Origin: Adineta ricciae
Taxonomy: Eukaryota; Rotifera; Eurotatoria; Adinetida; Adinetidae
Reading direction: 5' to 3'
DNA length: 64,000 bases
Assembly: GCA_905250025.1 (NCBI GenBank)
Contig: CAJNOJ010000110.1
Location: 248,001-312,000, forward strand
Part shown: piece by piece, positions 29,501-64,000 of the stretch
How the letters are laid out: each line of letters opens with the position of its first letter
Numbering within the stretch: the first letter of the stretch is position 1
Notes under the pieces: generated by a model
Told to the model about the DNA's origin: nothing
The model's input: the letters and a program-made list of their open reading frames with translations, nothing else
Databases searched by the model: none
Translations under genes and position numbers: made by a program

Positions 29501-32500
29501 GATACCGAAGACCGGCAAACAATCTATTATCTCGATCAGTCACCCATCAATTCTTATTTTCGGCGACGATATAAAGTCAAACGTTTGATGAATATTTAAA
29601 GGGAAAAAAAGAAGAAAAACTTTTGTATCATTCAAAATCTACCAAATAAAATCTTATTTGTTCGTCTCAATTCTATCTAGTTGAAAGAAAACAAGCAACA
29701 TCATGCATGTTTTATATCTTATTTAGATCGAACAAATTTTTACCTATTCGAATAAAGAATAAATATTCGTCAATTTGTTTCTCTTTCTCTCGTTCTTTCA
29801 TTCGTTTACATGTTCTACTTACCTTCAGGAACAGAACAACACGTTCATTACCACTTGTTGGATTCCGTTGAGCGACACACAAACTGTCAAGAATTTCACC
29901 ATTGAATTGATCGACAATAGAATAAATTTCAGCGGAACCGAAACGGATGCCATTAGGATTCAGTGTACCATCACTAAATCAATAACAACTAGAATTGTTT
30001 TTCATTCAGCAAAAGTCAGACAAAATACCTTCGGCCAAGCATAACAATACCGCGAGTAACTGGATTAATCAGACAGAAATCAGAATGATTCCATACACCT
30101 ATCGAACAAAAAGAATAACTTAGCGAAAGGCAATACCGCGCGAAAGATCACACCTGGATACTTATCGAAATAAGCACGATGGTACTTTTCACCCGTAGGG
30201 TCATTCCAAAAAGAAGCGGGCATCGAAGGAAATGGCTTGACGCAGACAAGTTCACCACTTTCACCTTCCAATTTTTTTCCTTTTCAATAACGAAGAAGAA
30301 TAACAACATTATTAAAAAGTTGTAAGAAAGGAAATAATAATACCATCTTCCGCCCAACATTCAATTGCCATGGCTAAATGAGGAGATTGTATTTCTCCTT
30401 GATGAACACTCAGAGTCGGATTCACACCGGCAAAACAAGAGCTATTACGATATCGATGAGTATATTTTTATGAACAAAATATTTCTTACATAATATCCGT
30501 TCCGCCCGTGATTGAACCCAATAATACGTCGGTTTTTATCTCCTTGTAAACATAGTCAAAGATACGGGCATGCAATGGGGAACCAGTCGATAGAATTGTA
30601 TGCACGGTATTGAGTTTGTTGTGCGTACGAGGCGTAACCTGCTGTTCTTCTAATGCTGCTAAGTAGCGTGCACTACAACCGAAGATGGTTACACTAAATT
30701 GAAAAAGTTTAATTTATTTCATAGAGAGACAAGTAGTTCTTACCCGATTTCATCAGCCAAATCCCAAAGTCGATAGCAATCAGGTACAATTGGCGAGCCA
30801 TCGTAGAGAACTATTGGCGTACCCAATGCAATCGATGAAATTAACTAAAGGAAATCATATGTAATTACTAGTGTATCACTACGACTCGTCATTTACCCAA
30901 TTCCACATCATCCAAGAAACCGCTAAAAATCAGCAAATATTGATATACACGGAACAAATACGAAAATTTCTTTACCTGTAAAGTAAAATAAAATATCTCC
31001 ATCTTTCATATTACTCTGTAACCGATGTTCCTTTAAATGATTTAATAACGTTCCGCCATGGCCATGCACGATACATTTTGGCGCACCAGTGGTACCAGAT
31101 GAATACATGTAAACACGCCGAAGAAAACAATCAGAATAAGTCGAACATTATAAAAAAGATACTTATAATAAATAAAGGATGATTGAATGGTACTTGTTCG
31201 AATTCTAATGGTCCTGTAGCATCACCAGGCAACGAAAGAAAATCATCAATTGTAATACTAAAACGTCTATGGATGAAAATTGACATGAAGATGATGATGA
31301 AAACCTGTTCGGGATGGTGCTGAGATCCATGGAATAATCGTGTACAAATGGAATGACGACGACAAATCGTAGTGATGGTAATGCTAGAATCGAAATGTGT
31401 TCACGTATATATTTCAATGTCGAATAATGATGATAGACGTACCGAGAACACTATCTTGAAGTTTAGCTAATGAGTCATGTGTTTTTCGATTGTAAACAAC
31501 AGCATTGCATCCGAAGATAACTTTGGGCTCGATCTGACTGAAACGTTCTGTAACACCCTGTGCATTTCAAATCAAATTAGAAAAGAAAAACAATCGACAA
31601 GATTTTTATTTACTAGAACGCCAAAATCTGCTGATGCAGCACTAAAGATTGCACCAAGACTAGCTGTTGCCAAACAGATGATCAGTGCTTCAGGACAATT
31701 TGGAAGATAAACTAACATCGAATGCGATGAACTTTGTATTTTTTTCACGAATATAAAAGATTTACCTGCAACACGATCACCGACTGTTACACCGATATGT
31801 TGAAGTGCAGCCCGATAACGACGAACTTGTTCATTCAGTTGAGCAAATGTCAACTTCTTAATCGACGCGTCACCCTCGCCTATAAAAGACAATCAAGATA
31901 TCAAATCGTTCCATAATCTTTCTTTTCATTAGATCAATGGGAGTAATTTACATAAGAACCTTCTGCTGTAGACTACAAGCTGAGTAGTAATCAGATTTCG
32001 AATTTTATGTAAAGAATATCGAGTTGTTACCTTTTATCTAACAATCGACTTGATTTCAAAAGAAACCAAACTATTTATCATACAAGAATACGTATCAACA
32101 ATAAAACTTACTGCACGAATAAATGGCCACTCGATCATCTTTGCAACGAAGAAGATTCTCAGCATAGTTCAAACGTGCACCAACAAACCAACGTGGAATT
32201 TCATCCATTCTCTTATTCTCTTCTAATACCTAAACAGTTCACATATAGACCAACTGTCTTTCAGTACACATGAACATACTTGTTCAAAAGGTGTAGAATG
32301 GATAACATCACTATAGGCCCAGAATGTTTCCCAAAACTTCGCAATATTATTTATTGACCATTCGTATAAATCCCAATAAGATTCTAAATTAATTGAGTGC
32401 TAGCAAATCATATCTTGAGTTATCAAAGTAAGTATTTGATACCTAATTTCACTTGATATTTATTCATAATAATCTCTCGAAACTCATCAATATTCGTAGT

Positions 32501-57710: not shown

Positions 57711-60700
57711 TCATTGTTCGACGACTTGTCTGGCCGGTACTCCCGACCAAACCGTGTTGAGAGCCAGTTGGTCGTTCTTCATGACGAGTGTGAAGGGTAG
57801 AAGACGATTTCGTCCATGAAGCGTTGATCCAGCGAGCACATTCGAATAACTCATCAATACACTCGACTGGTTCACAGTAACTGGCGCCAATTTGAACAAG
57901 CGTTGCTCAAATGTATGAGACTAAAATGAGTAAGAATGAAAATAACGGCATAGAATGAAAATCGTCTATTACCTGAAGCGACGCCCCAGAATGTAGACGG
58001 ACATGGTCGCCAATGGTGACCAGATGAGGATCAGTTAAACAACCGAGATTCGGCAGAATGACGTCTCGTCCAATGTGAGCACCGAGAGCGCGCAACAGAA
58101 AAACAAGATATTGTGTTTGTGAAAGGAACGGACCGACAAACATGTTCAGTTGAGACATAATCGTGCTGATAAACTGGTGCACGTGAGTAATTGTTTCCGA
58201 ATAGGTTAGAGTTGATTTTGTTCCCATGAGTGCAACTAAACAGTGGTACGCGACACACGAGATGATCACTTGAACAAATGGTGCGATAATAGTAGGGAGC
58301 AACGAATAAGTTGCGATGAATATAAATTTGCCGAACAAGAATACGGAGCAGTTCGCCATGAGGGTGTGCAAGAACGGGAAGGCGGGTAAAGACGCATCTT
58401 TGGTGAATGTCGTCGGATCCGGCATTACAAATGGCATTGGACGACTGGGAATTCCGAGTAGAACTGTATTGGCAACTGAACATTGCGTTTCTTCTGTGAC
58501 TCGAGTCAAATTACCGACGACTGTATTAGGCGCAAGCCGTACACCAGGCAAGAGCGTGCAAACATTGCCAAGGTTCGTAGCTGAGCCGAGAGTGATGATG
58601 TCAACATGACAATCGCCGGCTGATGTTACTTCAAATGGAGCAAGCGTAACTCCTGCAAAAGTTGTCGCGCTGCGTTCGATTTTAAGAAGATTCGACGGAA
58701 ATTGCAGAACAGGTTGAAATTCTGCCAGTTTCACATCGTGCTCAATGTGTGCACCCAACCAACGAAGAAGAACATTTGAGATGGCATTAAAAGAAGATAA
58801 AACTTCATATGAGTGATGAAACGATGAAATTAACAGTTGACGCAGCCACAGTTTGTGCAAGAAACTATAGCAGTTGATAGAATATTTGCCGGGTGTCAGA
58901 GGACCGACGATAAACTTCAGCGAGAACAAAACGACGAAGAGGCCAGTTATACTCCAAAACAGCCAGCTCAAAGCGAGAGCCATCGCCGCAGGCACCCACA
59001 AGGCCACGAAGAATCCATAGACAAGAGAGGCCAGAGCTAGTAGAGTACCATGAATGGTAGCAAGACAGAGAAGACACACCAGTTGATAGACGGTTTGGTG
59101 CCATGCAAAAGACCGATCTTTGATTGATGCATGTCCATTTGCCGACGAATAGCAACCTGTCACAACCGACATCGATTCCATGTGCACATAATCTTGCATT
59201 TTGACTTCACCGTAAAGAACACAACGAGTGCCAATGGAACAGTGCGATCCGATCGAAATCGGCTGAAGTTCGTACGCTTGATCATGATAGAGTAAACTTG
59301 ACACTATGGTGCCACTGCCGATGAACGTCGACTCACCCACATCGAGCAACCAAGGGGCGTCAATCCACGTCGAATAAATCTGCACTCCACGGCCGACGCG
59401 AGCACCGCACAGTCGAAGATAGGAATTGTAGAAAGACGTACCCAACAAGTGTTGCAACCAGTAGGAGTTGTTTATCGACCAGAGTCGCTCCAAAAACAGC
59501 CATCGATAGTATCGCCATGAGTATAACAGGTCAATGCGCTCCGACTCTTCGTTGGACCAAAATAGCAGACGTCGGCAAACGACATACGATAATAAATGGC
59601 TCACAGGTACAAGCAAACATGTCAACCGGTACGAAGAGTAGTATGCTATTAGTATTGGATATAGCCATTGACATATAAGAAACACAATGCCCACTGCCTC
59701 GATAAACAAGGATGGTGCTGGTCGGCGTTGATCTTCAATCAGCTGCGCTATCGTTTCTGTTCTCTGGACTTCTTTTTCTTCTTCATTTTCGTCTGGTTTA
59801 CCCACGAGCAACGGTTGAAGGGCTCGTGCCAGTTGCCGTACCGAAGGATTCTCGAGAAGAAGGCCGATCTCCATATTTGGGTAGACTTCCTGTCGAATCA
59901 AAGACAAAGCAAAAATTGCATCTATCGACGTTCCACCGAGCTGCCCGAAAGAAGCATTCACATTGAGTGCTTCAACGTGGAAAGCTCGAACAAAAACAGC
60001 CGCTAGAAGTTCTTCGAGCGGTGTTAGTGGACCACAATGTTCATTATTAAAAGTCGTCGATGGCGAAAAGTTTGGGATGGGAAGGAGTTGTCGATCCACT
60101 TTACCGTTAGCGTTGAGTGGTAGTTGTTTGAGCACGGTGAACACTGATGGAACCATGTACGAAGGGAGATGTGATTCACAGTGTTTGCGAAGTTCTTTCT
60201 CGTTAATGTTATCACTTTGCACATAAGCGACTAAGTGATCATCACCCCACTTGACGACCACGCAGCTCGTGATGAGTGACGATGCTTCGAGCACACATCG
60301 TTCGATTTCACCTGGTTCGAGACGTTGTCCACGTAGTTTGATCTGATGGTCTTTCCGACCAACATAGTAAAGCAAGTCATCCCTTTCGAGTCGGACCAGA
60401 TCACCAGTTCGGTAGAATAATTGGCCATCTATGTCGACGAGTGCTTTGTCTGTCAGATCCTTACGTCCGAGATAGCCAGCGAAAACACCTACGCCACCCA
60501 CCAGTAATTCACCGACTTCCCCGACTGTGACTGGCTGTGAGAACTCGTCCACAATCACACATTGGTAACCAGGAAGCAACCAACCGATCGGGATATTCCT
60601 CATCTCCGATGTCAACGCGATGACATGGTACGTAGCAACCAGTGTGGTTTCAGCGGGACCATATAAATTCCAAATGCGACACGTGCTCTCGACACTATTC

Positions 60701-61479
60701 TTCAACACGGCAATCAACTTCACAGGAAACGGCTCGCCTATCACAGAAGGAATGAAACAAGATGAGCATAGAGTCCAATTGCATGTCACTCACCAATGCA
60801 ACAGATAGATCTTAGTGATGATGCTGCGCATCTTTTGCCATTCTGTTGAAGATAGATGAAGAAAGCAGTCAATAACGTCGGCACCGCATGTATGTATGTT
60901 ACATGATGATCGACGAGCACTTGACCTAGGTATTCAAAGTCCATGGGTCCTTCTGGATGAAGCATAACCAGTGTGGCGCCCACAATCAGTGTTCCAATGA
61001 TATCTTCCACATGGATGTCGAATGAGCATCGAACGATTTGAGCAACTGTATCATTCTCACTGAATGTGCCCACTTCGACTAGAGAGCGAATGGCTTCTAG
61101 GAAATTTCGCTGACGCACTTGAACCTACAAGAATAATGAACATAGAGCGACAGGGTTGAAAATAGTATTCATTGCTGACCGCTTTTGGTGTTCCTGTAGA
61201 GCCACTAGTGAATATGATGTATCCAATGTTGTCGCCACTCACTGCAACGTGCGAGAGACGATCACGGTCGTTGTCGCTCACTCCGCTGCTCATATTCAGA
61301 ACTAGGTCCATGTCTAGTATTGCATGATGACCATCGAATATCTCTCGTGTGAATGCATGAACGAGAACAAGGCGACTATTAGTTTGTTCGACGAGAGTAT
61401 GCAGACGGTGAAGTGGATCTTGAGGTGACAGCGGACAATATACTGCACCAGCTATCTCGATCGCCATGATGCCGATGAT
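57711..61479 (-). CDS. NRPS-like synthetase, A-T-(TM + left-handed beta-helix) type, Pls (epsilon-poly-lysine synthetase)-like; 5' end missing
   Basis: Nonribosomal enzyme expected to adenylate an amino acid, load it on a phosphopantetheine carrier and polymerise it at a membrane. Exons 61479-61180, 61124-60794, 60737-57973 and 57920-57711, joined by 52-56-nt introns in phase, give about 1,200 aa. The A domain has FTSGSTGTPKAV (A3), SFDIHVED (A4), NLYGPAETT (A5), YRTGDLVR (A7), GRKDHQIKLRGQRLEPGEIE (A8) and NANGKVDR (A10). The carrier site is FGQLGGTSIDA. After it come about six TM segments alternating with three beta-helix (hexapeptide-like) blocks: GARVGRGVQIYS, GAHIEHDVKL and GAHIGRDVILPN. 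There is no ordinary condensation or thioesterase domain. This is the layout of bacterial Pls. DNA is visibly richer in G and C than its neighbours, and the main exon is 2.8 kb. Motifs A1-A2 are absent, so upstream exon(s) are missing. Confidence 0.92.
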
Positions 61480-62604
61480 CTAAGCAATGAAACAAATGGT
61501 GATTTCATATCAACGGTGTATCACTCTGGGATGAGAAAAACCGAAATTATTTTAGGGTTCCGTTGAGTGTGGGTGAGGATTTGAGTTTGGCGATGGGATG
61601 AGTCGAACTATCCAATGACATGTTGGAACAGATATGAATGTATTGCCTTGAAACATATCAATGTCATGTATAACGGTGAATTTATCTTTTTTCAAATTGC
61701 GAGCTGCTGGTGATATATGGTATGGATGGTGAATAAGTGGTTTCATCGTTAAGTGAAACGTACAGTGGTTGTGAATTAGTTTCTTCGAAATAGATTCACT
61801 TTTTAGATGGGTAAACAGCGTTTTGTGTAGTATCTTCATCACGAATATCGGCTACTGAGAGTGTTCGGAACGAACTGTGTGGAATAAAATTTAACATGGG
61901 TGAATAGGATTAATGAAAAATTAACATTGATGGAAGAAAAGGAAACTTCATTAACCCAAAATACATCATGTTCTATTTTTTTTTCTTGTCACTTATTTAG
62001 CTATCTTCAAAAGACAAAATATATTTAAAGTTGTTAAGTCAAAAGCTGTATGCGTTGCATATGACACGTTGTCTTTATTTGAAGTTTTTCGTATGAAAAA
62101 TTATCTATTACATTTTAATCTAAATCGACTGACAAAAGTCGAGTGTATTTCTTAGAGAAATCGGCGATATAAGGATTATAAAAGAATATAGGAAAGTATG
62201 TAGAACTGTACAGAGTAGAAAACAACAAGAATTGTTGTCAGGATATTTATACTTATGTTATTTATTTTTATATTGAAACCGTTAGCTTTTCATATTCAAG
62301 TTCGTGCTTGTATGCATATCACTTTAGTCTCACTATTTATCTATGTGGAAAGCGTCTGAAACGCACTGTTTTCATCACAATGTCACTATAACAGCAAACT
62401 GGTTGATTAATTAACCGCTGCTCACGGTATGATGCTTATTGACTACTCTACATAACCAGAATGTCCCTATTTCACAATAAGACACGCATTTATATAGACA
62501 ATAGGGGAGAGAGAGATGAGCCGGAGAAAGTATGACAGAGGTGACAGAAAAAAGAAGGGAAAAAGATGAACGATATTATTGTCATTACAGTCACTTTACC
62601 TGAA

Positions 62605-62890
62605 CTGCAAAACCCAGATAAAAAAATCCGGTTCGGAACTGGCCAGTTCCAGGGCCATCCGGAGATTTCATGCGAACAGTATTCCGGTTACTAGATCCTA
62701 TTACCGGATTTACCCGGTTTCTTTGGGAACCGACAAGAACCTGCCGTAGCCGACAGTCGGATACGATTCCTGCAAGGGGGAAAAAGCGGATCCGGGATTC
62801 TCGGATTTCATAGATTCTGACGGATTCCATGGATTCTGTGGCATCTTCTGTATTTGTTTTTGGATTCTAGAATCCGTTTTCTCCTCTGTC
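62605..62890. repeat. CCGG/GGATTC-rich patch with a perfect 16-bp palindrome
   Basis: This stretch repeats short units (CCGGA, CCGGTT, GGATTC/GAATCC) and contains the palindrome GGAACTGGCCAGTTCC at 62635-62650. Its composition is unlike the surrounding AT-rich DNA. It may be a fragment of a mobile element, but no ends or coding part were seen. Confidence 0.5.
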
Positions 62891-63214
62891 GTATACATCG
62901 GCTTTAGTCAATAGCGCAAGTATGGAAAATAAAATATTCTCTTCAATGTCTAGCGACGTAATAACAAGTAACGCTCATCCGTTGGACTCGCTGACCCTTT
63001 TCTGAAGGACTTTTCCGAATGCTGAACACATTCAGAGACTTCGAAAGAGAAAACACGCACTGCGATTGCTACTAGTGCTCAACTCAATCATGGCACTATG
63101 TCACACACTAGAATGAATAGAATTCAAAAGTCTTTTTAGAAATCAGACCGATTAGCCATTTGTCAGTGGATAATTCTCCAGCACTATCTATGTTGACTGA
63201 AAAATTCATCGCTC

Positions 63215-63592
63215 AACGGCTAGTCAGACGGCCACTCACGGCCAACCATTGACCTTTGTCATCTGTTTTTCTATTTTCATATCACGCGCATGGAAATTTT
63301 CATAAATGCTCTACTAAGTCACTCATAGACGGATGATATACAGTAGACTGCTTGAAAAGTTTGAACATTCGCCTGTGTCTTCCAGCGATAATCCGATTCT
63401 TTTCTCTCCTGCCAACAAAATGATACCTTGTCGAATATTTTCATTGAGAAATATCCATTCGTCAAATCCCTTTCAAAATTATCTGAAGCCTGGCAAGGTT
63501 ATTCTAAGCGTACACTTTAGGATTAATCTAACATTCAAACGGCTAGTCGTTCGTCGACCTCTCTTCGGTCGGCCACTCACGGCTAGCCGTTG
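63215..63592. repeat. Two copies of a short element with terminal inverted repeats
   Basis: Both copies start with AACGGCTAGTC (63215 and 63538) and share CGGCCACTCACGGC (63229-63242 and 63570-63583). The second copy ends in CTAGCCGTT (63583-63591), the exact inverse of AACGGCTAG (63538-63546), so it can form a stem-loop. The first copy is shorter, with a diverged right arm ending CCAACCATT. Confidence 0.6.
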
Positions 63593-64000
63593 CCATGCTG
63601 TCTCTGTTATTCCTTTCGCCTTTGATCAACTTCCAAACTGAACGGTTGGGTTTCCTTTTATTGTCGCTTCGACAGTCATGATCTTCTATTCATTCGACTA
63701 CCCAAAGAAACTAGATAAGAAAGTCTTATTATATGATTTGCTTCGAAACGAACATCTTTCATAGCGCTGCATGTGTTCAGAATACTGTTTGTATAGTCCA
63801 CGCGTCTGTAGTTACTAAGATAGAATTCCACCGACGGGTATATCGCTTTGAGAACTACTTCCACTAAATTCCCATGAAAGGACATCATGTACGTAGCCTA
63901 CAAAACAAAGATGATACTAAGCTCATATCACTTTTTCGGATTTCTTCAATTAGAAACATCATTATGCACAATACATTAGATCTTTTCGTGTAAGTTCTTG

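Follow-up and report, generated by a model that had tools for sequence, protein, structure and literature searches.

A putative terminal nonribosomal peptide synthetase module with a divergent Pls-type membrane region in the bdelloid rotifer Adineta ricciae

A synthetase gene at the end of contig C110

We analysed a stretch of 64,000 nucleotides from the bdelloid rotifer Adineta ricciae (C110:248001-312000, hereafter the window) and, within it, a gene at 57711-61479 whose C-terminal half resembles the membrane region of the Pls/PosA family, which comprises the epsilon-poly-L-lysine and delta-poly-L-ornithine synthetases and is described by profile TIGR02353. The genome spans 130 Mb in 1033 contigs; C110 (CAJNOJ010000110.1) is 319 kb long and runs 7.5 kb past the window. 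We read the gene as the terminal module of a nonribosomal peptide synthetase (NRPS), with condensation, adenylation and carrier domains (C-A-T), in which a divergent Pls/PosA-type membrane domain would replace the thioesterase, and give this reading a probability of roughly 60%. It is directly supported by the domain order on the contig, the intron sites shared with paralogs, the homology of the tail, the existence of a paralogous family and an A domain that is related to other NRPS modules of the genome.

Inside the window, four coding exons on the minus strand (61479-61180, 61124-60794, 60737-57973 and 57920-57711) are joined at GT-AG splice sites and yield 1201 codons plus a stop codon, with no internal stops. 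The introns that separate them measure 55 bp (61125..61179), 56 bp (60738..60793) and 52 bp (57921..57972). The exon at 61180..61479 opens at the acceptor TTGCTTAG of a 9.3 kb intron and encodes part of the A domain (positions 68-168 of our own A-domain profile), including FTSGSTGTPKA. The A domain continues at 60794..61124, which holds FDIHVED and with it D, I and E at positions 1-3 of the substrate code. The exon at 57973..60737 encodes the remainder of the A domain, the carrier domain (59809..60054, with the GGTS phosphopantetheine site in GGTSIDAI at 59914-59937) and most of the Pls-type region. The last exon contributes the end of the third hexapeptide block, the SHTFEQR half of a conserved QxH..E.R motif and the stop codon. 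The Pls-type terminal region, made of membrane segments and hexapeptide blocks, extends over 57717..59730 and contains the 52 bp intron; the same profile position is split in the tails of paralogs, whereas it is unsplit in the true Pls copies of this genome, on contigs C12 and C383.

Pfam profiles AMP-binding, AMP-binding_C, PP-binding and Hexapep all scored above cut-off in the window protein. TIGR01733 reached 299.3 bits, below its cut-off of 317.4; the start of the A domain (the first 38 of 409 model positions) is missing in the window. The A and T domains that the first-pass annotation, made by a model from the sequence, had recognised are therefore both present by profile, the former without its start. 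In the C-terminal half, residues 619-1195 aligned with positions 79-695 of the 695 of TIGR02353 (154.9 bits, E 2.7e-45), short of the curated cut-off of 423.1 bits. A profile built solely from 36 Pls tails outside this genome, one of them from a contig filed as viral, gave 245 bits for the window tail, compared with 5.6 bits for the best of 315 shuffled or reversed control sequences. The window tail is approximately 16-27% identical to the Pls tails compared. The C-terminal membrane region with its alternating hexapeptide blocks is thus homologous to that of the Pls/PosA family, as the first-pass annotation had held. Hydropathy revealed five clear membrane segments of the six or so described at first, and the sixth is predicted from homology.

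The gene continues upstream of the window. A 5' exon on the minus strand (C110:319491-318799) encodes the last third of a condensation domain and the start of the A domain, and ends at the donor ATG|GTAAGT. With this exon added to those of the window, the A domain is whole (PF00501, 222.2 bits, covering positions 6-384 of 384). Its condensation stretch matches PF00668 positions 305-435 (25.7 bits, E 6e-6) and is 51% identical to that of a paralog on C297, itself above the PF00668 cut-off. The contig ends inside this domain. The intron between the 5' exon and the window exons is 9319 bp long (C110:309480-318798; 61480..64000 in the window and the remainder at L105:1-6790), and the intron site of the 5' exon is common to eight modules in six paralogous loci, where the introns measure 52-66 bp. 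As read from this exon structure, the condensation domain is joined to A and T, and the shared intron site argues for a terminal C-A-T module rather than a stand-alone Pls. The first-pass annotation had listed no condensation domain, which holds for the window and fails past it, and four exon joins, three of which lie inside the window coordinates while the fourth exists only with the 5' exon.

Within the 9319 bp intron, a high-copy repeat (62960..64000, strand unassigned) has a sharp edge at about 62960 and runs past the window; among the best candidates scored, 39 other places in the genome also start at this edge, at 90-95% identity. Further high-copy repeats lie in the part of the intron outside the window. 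No mobile-element gene was recognised in the intron, where the frames viewed were short and were not scanned for families, copy number being measured instead.

Paralogous modules and genomic surroundings

A search of the same genome with the main exon retrieved at least 50 places, and PF00668 retrieved at least 82. Mapping domains on the loci with self-made profiles, we distinguished at least 13 terminal modules of the window type, on C110, C145, C247 (two), C297, C363, C368, C43, C509, C548, C615, C644 and C926; the TIGR02353 search added one further tail end on C297. The 12 modules other than the window gene, on 11 other contigs, are all intron-split. Ten of the 13 have condensation-domain sequence upstream, on the strand of the module; in eight it was identified by PF00668 or is the 5' exon itself, and in two (C615 and C926) the evidence is a tblastn match to the 5' exon alone. 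The remaining three are the C43 module, at a contig end, the second C247 copy, in tandem, and the C509 module, for which none was found. More A-T modules lie upstream in six loci (C247, C297, C363, C368, C548 and C644). At C297, several C-A-T modules in series precede the same tail, and the last of their condensation domains contains HHSAFDG. A cytochrome P450-like frame, recognised by eye, lies directly 3' of the C297 synthetase (C297:13212-11686).

The family also shares short motifs. The carrier site is GGTS in 11 of the 13 terminal modules (GGSS and GASS in the other two), and GGHS in four of eight internal carriers, the others having GAHS, GGSS and, twice, HGTS. In the tail motif QTHLFEDRVMK, 11 of the 13 modules retain the Q, and the same number holds for the H, the E, the R and the K, missing cells being gaps in the piecewise assembly of the copies. 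In their second block, window-type tails do not retain the E-I/V/L-S-T motif. Neither a thioesterase nor a reductase release domain was found: the frame ends after the tail and none of the nine PF00975 places in the genome falls on the 12 terminal-module contigs, while no search aimed at reductases was made. The first-pass observation that a thioesterase is missing is therefore borne out. Elsewhere in the genome, very long uninterrupted NRPS frames with thioesterase matches occur at C114:194972-219494 and C768:8906-16960 (up to 3571 and 4163 aa); unlike the intron-rich family described here, they are perhaps recent acquisitions.

Of the 10 neighbouring frames that we scanned, two have no Pfam match and eight do; the families of the latter include tyrosine phosphatase (twice), rhodopsin-type G protein-coupled receptor, bicarbonate transporter, PH, Misato and RRM_7. 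These neighbours mark the host as an animal, and its wealth of NRPS genes, which PMC10531068 and PMC11258130 report for bdelloids, makes a bdelloid rotifer plausible. TGTGGG arrays, considered as a telomeric sign of bdelloids, also occur, but the reversed control used for them is a rotation of that repeat, and they carry no weight. Part of another AMP-binding enzyme, probably an acetoacetyl-CoA synthetase, lies at 31575-31892 of the window; it was tested with PF00501. The GC content of the window exons (57711-61479) is 0.47, compared with 0.35 in the first 57 kb of the window. In 12 other copies measured in the same genome (10 of the window type and two Pls) it ranges from 0.31 to 0.41.

Phylogeny, substrate pocket and true Pls genes

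The profile search and phylogenies suggested by the first-pass annotation gave a divided result, with AMP-binding and PP-binding above cut-off and TIGR02353 below it, the A domain grouping with the NRPS modules of the genome and the tail standing apart from Pls tails. The A-domain tree comprised 60 rows: 36 out of 89 Pls loci, including one from a contig filed as viral, seven NRPS and 17 domains from this genome. In one clade (100/100), the window gene was joined by 14 further A domains of the genome, internal and terminal ones mixed. The 36 outside Pls A domains, together with those on C12 and C383, formed a separate branch (100/99) that does not include the window gene. These 60 rows gave no indication of which bacterial NRPS gave rise to the family. 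For the tail, a quick run of 51 rows returned a long-branch warning, and a careful run was made with 35 rows after 16 had been dropped (L006, L009 and C145 among them). In the latter, 12 window-type tails stood apart (100/100, branch 2.02), and the C12 and C383 tails fell among the other Pls tails. This separation indicates that the window-type tail did not arise by recent copying of the genome's own Pls but is a sister of Pls that is either old or evolving fast.

The substrate code of the window A domain reads D I E T C I L L V K, with position 4 taken from our own alignment and possibly shifted relative to that of PMC10522769. The code includes Asp and Glu at positions 1 and 3, a diamine signature that passages of PMC10522769 describe as conserved in synthetases of cationic homopoly(amino acids) (CHPA). 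At position 3, the nine readable terminal modules have E (C110, C297 and C926), Q (C43, C363 and C615), K (C368), R (C548) or S (C145), and this variation among paralogs does not support a fixed diamine substrate. The window residues at positions 5-8 (C, I, L and L) occur in none of the 36 outside Pls codes. Given that Asp and Glu are kept, yet other positions are unlike Pls, we name no substrate for the window gene.

True Pls/PosA-type genes are present in the same genome. Four places score above the TIGR02353 cut-off, at 546-558 bits (C12:713391-717342, C12:685052-687121, C383:7518-11188 and C383:34446-36515), and a fifth, on C356, reaches 371 bits with a TGA inside the match. One gene on each of C12 and C383 was read, and both have the order A-T-tail; neither contig appears in the genome list of PF00668 matches. 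The C12 pocket code, D M E T N G S V A K, is of the ornithine type, the code of the poly-ornithine synthetase PosA being given as D M E H N G T V S K in the part of PMC10522769 that we cite; in the C383 gene, an unread stretch covers the code positions. Because these places pass the Pls/PosA cut-off, the C12 and C383 genes are, by profile, a better fit than the window gene to the idea of a homopolymer synthetase. They make up a separate prediction, that of an animal poly-ornithine. A third type of gene was noted on C233, where a carrier domain is followed by an 851-aa membrane/hexapeptide frame weakly like TIGR02353 (C233:18416-21525), and a second such frame lies 10 kb from the first (C233:28639-30843).

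We also surveyed the phyla of four bacterial loci, with the four starting genomes included and the best two or three candidates per genome scored. TIGR02353 matched at E up to 1e-40 in 15/296, 27/398, 3/292 and 6/395 genomes (51/1381 in total). The longest open frame at the 59 bacterial places listed was 1480 aa, the size of an A-T-tail protein, which leaves no room for a second module, although a gene split across several frames would escape such a survey. Open frames were likewise at most 1442 aa at 81 loci from the genome and viral scans, the genome scan having contributed 80 loci kept from at least 597 matches listed. Tail matches occurred in 45 plasmid records, of which 8 were fetched, and A-domain matches in 861, of which 7 were fetched. 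A viral origin was considered and rejected: viral contigs gave 19 pattern matches, a single one of which encodes a relative, and that relative falls with the Pls of bacteria. Pls-type genes were also seen on L089, an IMG/VR contig filed as viral, and on L021, a Thaumarchaeota contig.

Alternative readings, a possible mechanism and known systems

Several observations weigh against the proposed terminal module. The PF00668 match of the 5' exon lies below the cut-off of 30.6, and the active-site half of the condensation domain falls past the contig end. For the paralogs, order and strand alone suggest that the upstream A-T modules and the tail belong to a single transcript. Just 25 tail columns are conserved, by our own criterion, between the window-type family and Pls. 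Weak TIGR02353 matches (E up to 0.001) occurred in 13 of 14 control genomes, one of which also had a match above cut-off, so that single weak exon matches prove little alone. The repeat-filled 9.3 kb intron could impair splicing, and the synonymous distances (dS) to the nearest paralogs are close to saturation. Finally, the Pls tail itself was without structural information as of 2023, according to passages of PMC10522769.

The alternative that survives best, though we regard it as unlikely, is that of a dying copy, in which repeat insertions in the first intron have split the gene and the full protein is no longer made. The 9319 bp intron of high-copy repeats, compared with 52-66 bp in the eight paralogous modules, would fit this possibility, and decay is seen elsewhere in the family: C509 carries a broken extra copy (seven TGA and two TAA in the match, partial tail), and C644 has lost most of its terminal A domain. 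Single stops in other matches within the genome were not counted as decay and may be intron read-through. However, the 1201 codons of the window gene contain no stop, its splice sites are GT-AG and long introns can be spliced. Compared with its two nearest paralogs, C926 and C297, it shows nonsynonymous distances (dN) of 0.32-0.34 and dS of 2.0-3.2; low dN with dS of at least 2 makes purifying selection, that is, selection for function, likely.

Somewhat less probable still is a tail that acts as a membrane anchor or exporter and not as a catalyst, release being left to another enzyme or to hydrolysis. The very long branch of the window-type tails, the loss of many residues conserved in Pls and the missing E-I/V/L-S-T motif would agree with such a role. 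Against it, the QxH..E.R..K site and several structural glycines have been kept across about three changes per column, and a pure anchor would hardly need them.

The reading favoured by the first-pass annotation, a stand-alone A-T synthetase of the Pls type making a cationic homopolymer, now appears improbable. It accounts for the A and T domains and Pls-type tail inside the window, and for the CHPA-conserved Asp and Glu in the code. It does not sit well with the condensation-domain exon upstream, the missed TIGR02353 cut-off, an A domain that falls outside the Pls branch and inside an NRPS clade, pocket positions 5-8 unlike those of the outside Pls codes and a position 3 that is unconserved among paralogs. 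Bacterial contamination or misassembly, to which the raised GC content and the contig end within the gene might point, is very hard to reconcile with spliceosomal introns, a 319 kb contig on which the neighbouring genes are animal ones, and 12 intron-split modules on 11 other contigs, and the gene stands as an animal one, as first annotated.

Returning to the terminal C-A-T module, a mechanism can be sketched by analogy with hexapeptide-fold acyltransferases and Pls. Enzymes of the hexapeptide fold often take an acyl group from CoA or a carrier protein and pass it to an amine, and the presumed role of Pls tails is the joining of amino acids. Upstream modules, which would lie past the contig end here and are seen in paralogs, may build a peptide on their carrier domains. 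The last carrier, usually of the GGTS type, would pass the peptidyl thioester to the membrane tail, which, through its conserved QxH..E.R site, could transfer the peptide to an amine acceptor at the membrane. The product would be released as an amide or conjugate, or several copies would be joined, and synthesis, perhaps with export, would be kept at the membrane. A membrane tail of the acyltransferase type in place of a thioesterase is, by this analogy, the most likely arrangement.

More tentatively, and with doubt outweighing confidence, we suggest a new class of NRPS termination, in which the peptide is handed to a Pls-type membrane acyltransferase, coupled to an amine and possibly polymerised or fixed to a membrane or cell-surface acceptor. 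The fusion of tail and NRPS would have taken place in an animal lineage, and later duplication would have raised the number of such genes to at least a dozen. If a dozen bdelloid NRPS do end in a membrane transfer domain and not in a thioesterase, the usual rules, which predict peptides released by cyclisation or hydrolysis, would give wrong products, and the compounds may be conjugates or polymers made at the membrane.

NRPS genes are held to be rare in animals, and the products of the many bdelloid NRPS are an open question, according to passages of PMC10531068 and PMC11258130. The bdelloid NRPS and NRPS-polyketide synthase clusters of these two papers resemble the present family as a large set of animal NRPS with many C and A domains; no membrane tail is described in the main-text passages concerned. 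The main text of PMC11258130 has no use of the terms transmembrane, hexapeptide, poly-lysine, thioesterase or terminal domain, and that of PMC10531068 none of transmembrane, hexapeptide, membrane or terminal domain. Among the titles and abstracts listed in our literature search, none described a C-A-T module with a Pls-type tail, and none linked a rotifer to poly-lysine.

Eukaryotic genes with a Pls tail are on record as fungal Epls (PMC7179176) and as CHPA homologues, reported in passages of PMC10522769 from fungi, Alveolata, Amoebozoa and "some species from Metazoa". The C12 and C383 genes resemble these, which the parts of both papers cited here describe as A-T-tail homopolymer synthetases and not as multimodular NRPS. 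With the Pls/PosA family at large, the window gene shares a carrier ahead of a membrane region that has three hexapeptide blocks, the QxH..E.R..K site and a code with Asp at position 1 and Glu at position 3; it differs in its preceding condensation domain, NRPS-lineage A domain, sub-cut-off tail and the varied pockets of its paralogs. NRPS that end in a thioesterase (PF00975) would have in common with it a multimodular C-A-T assembly line, whereas the window family ends instead in a domain of the membrane/hexapeptide type.

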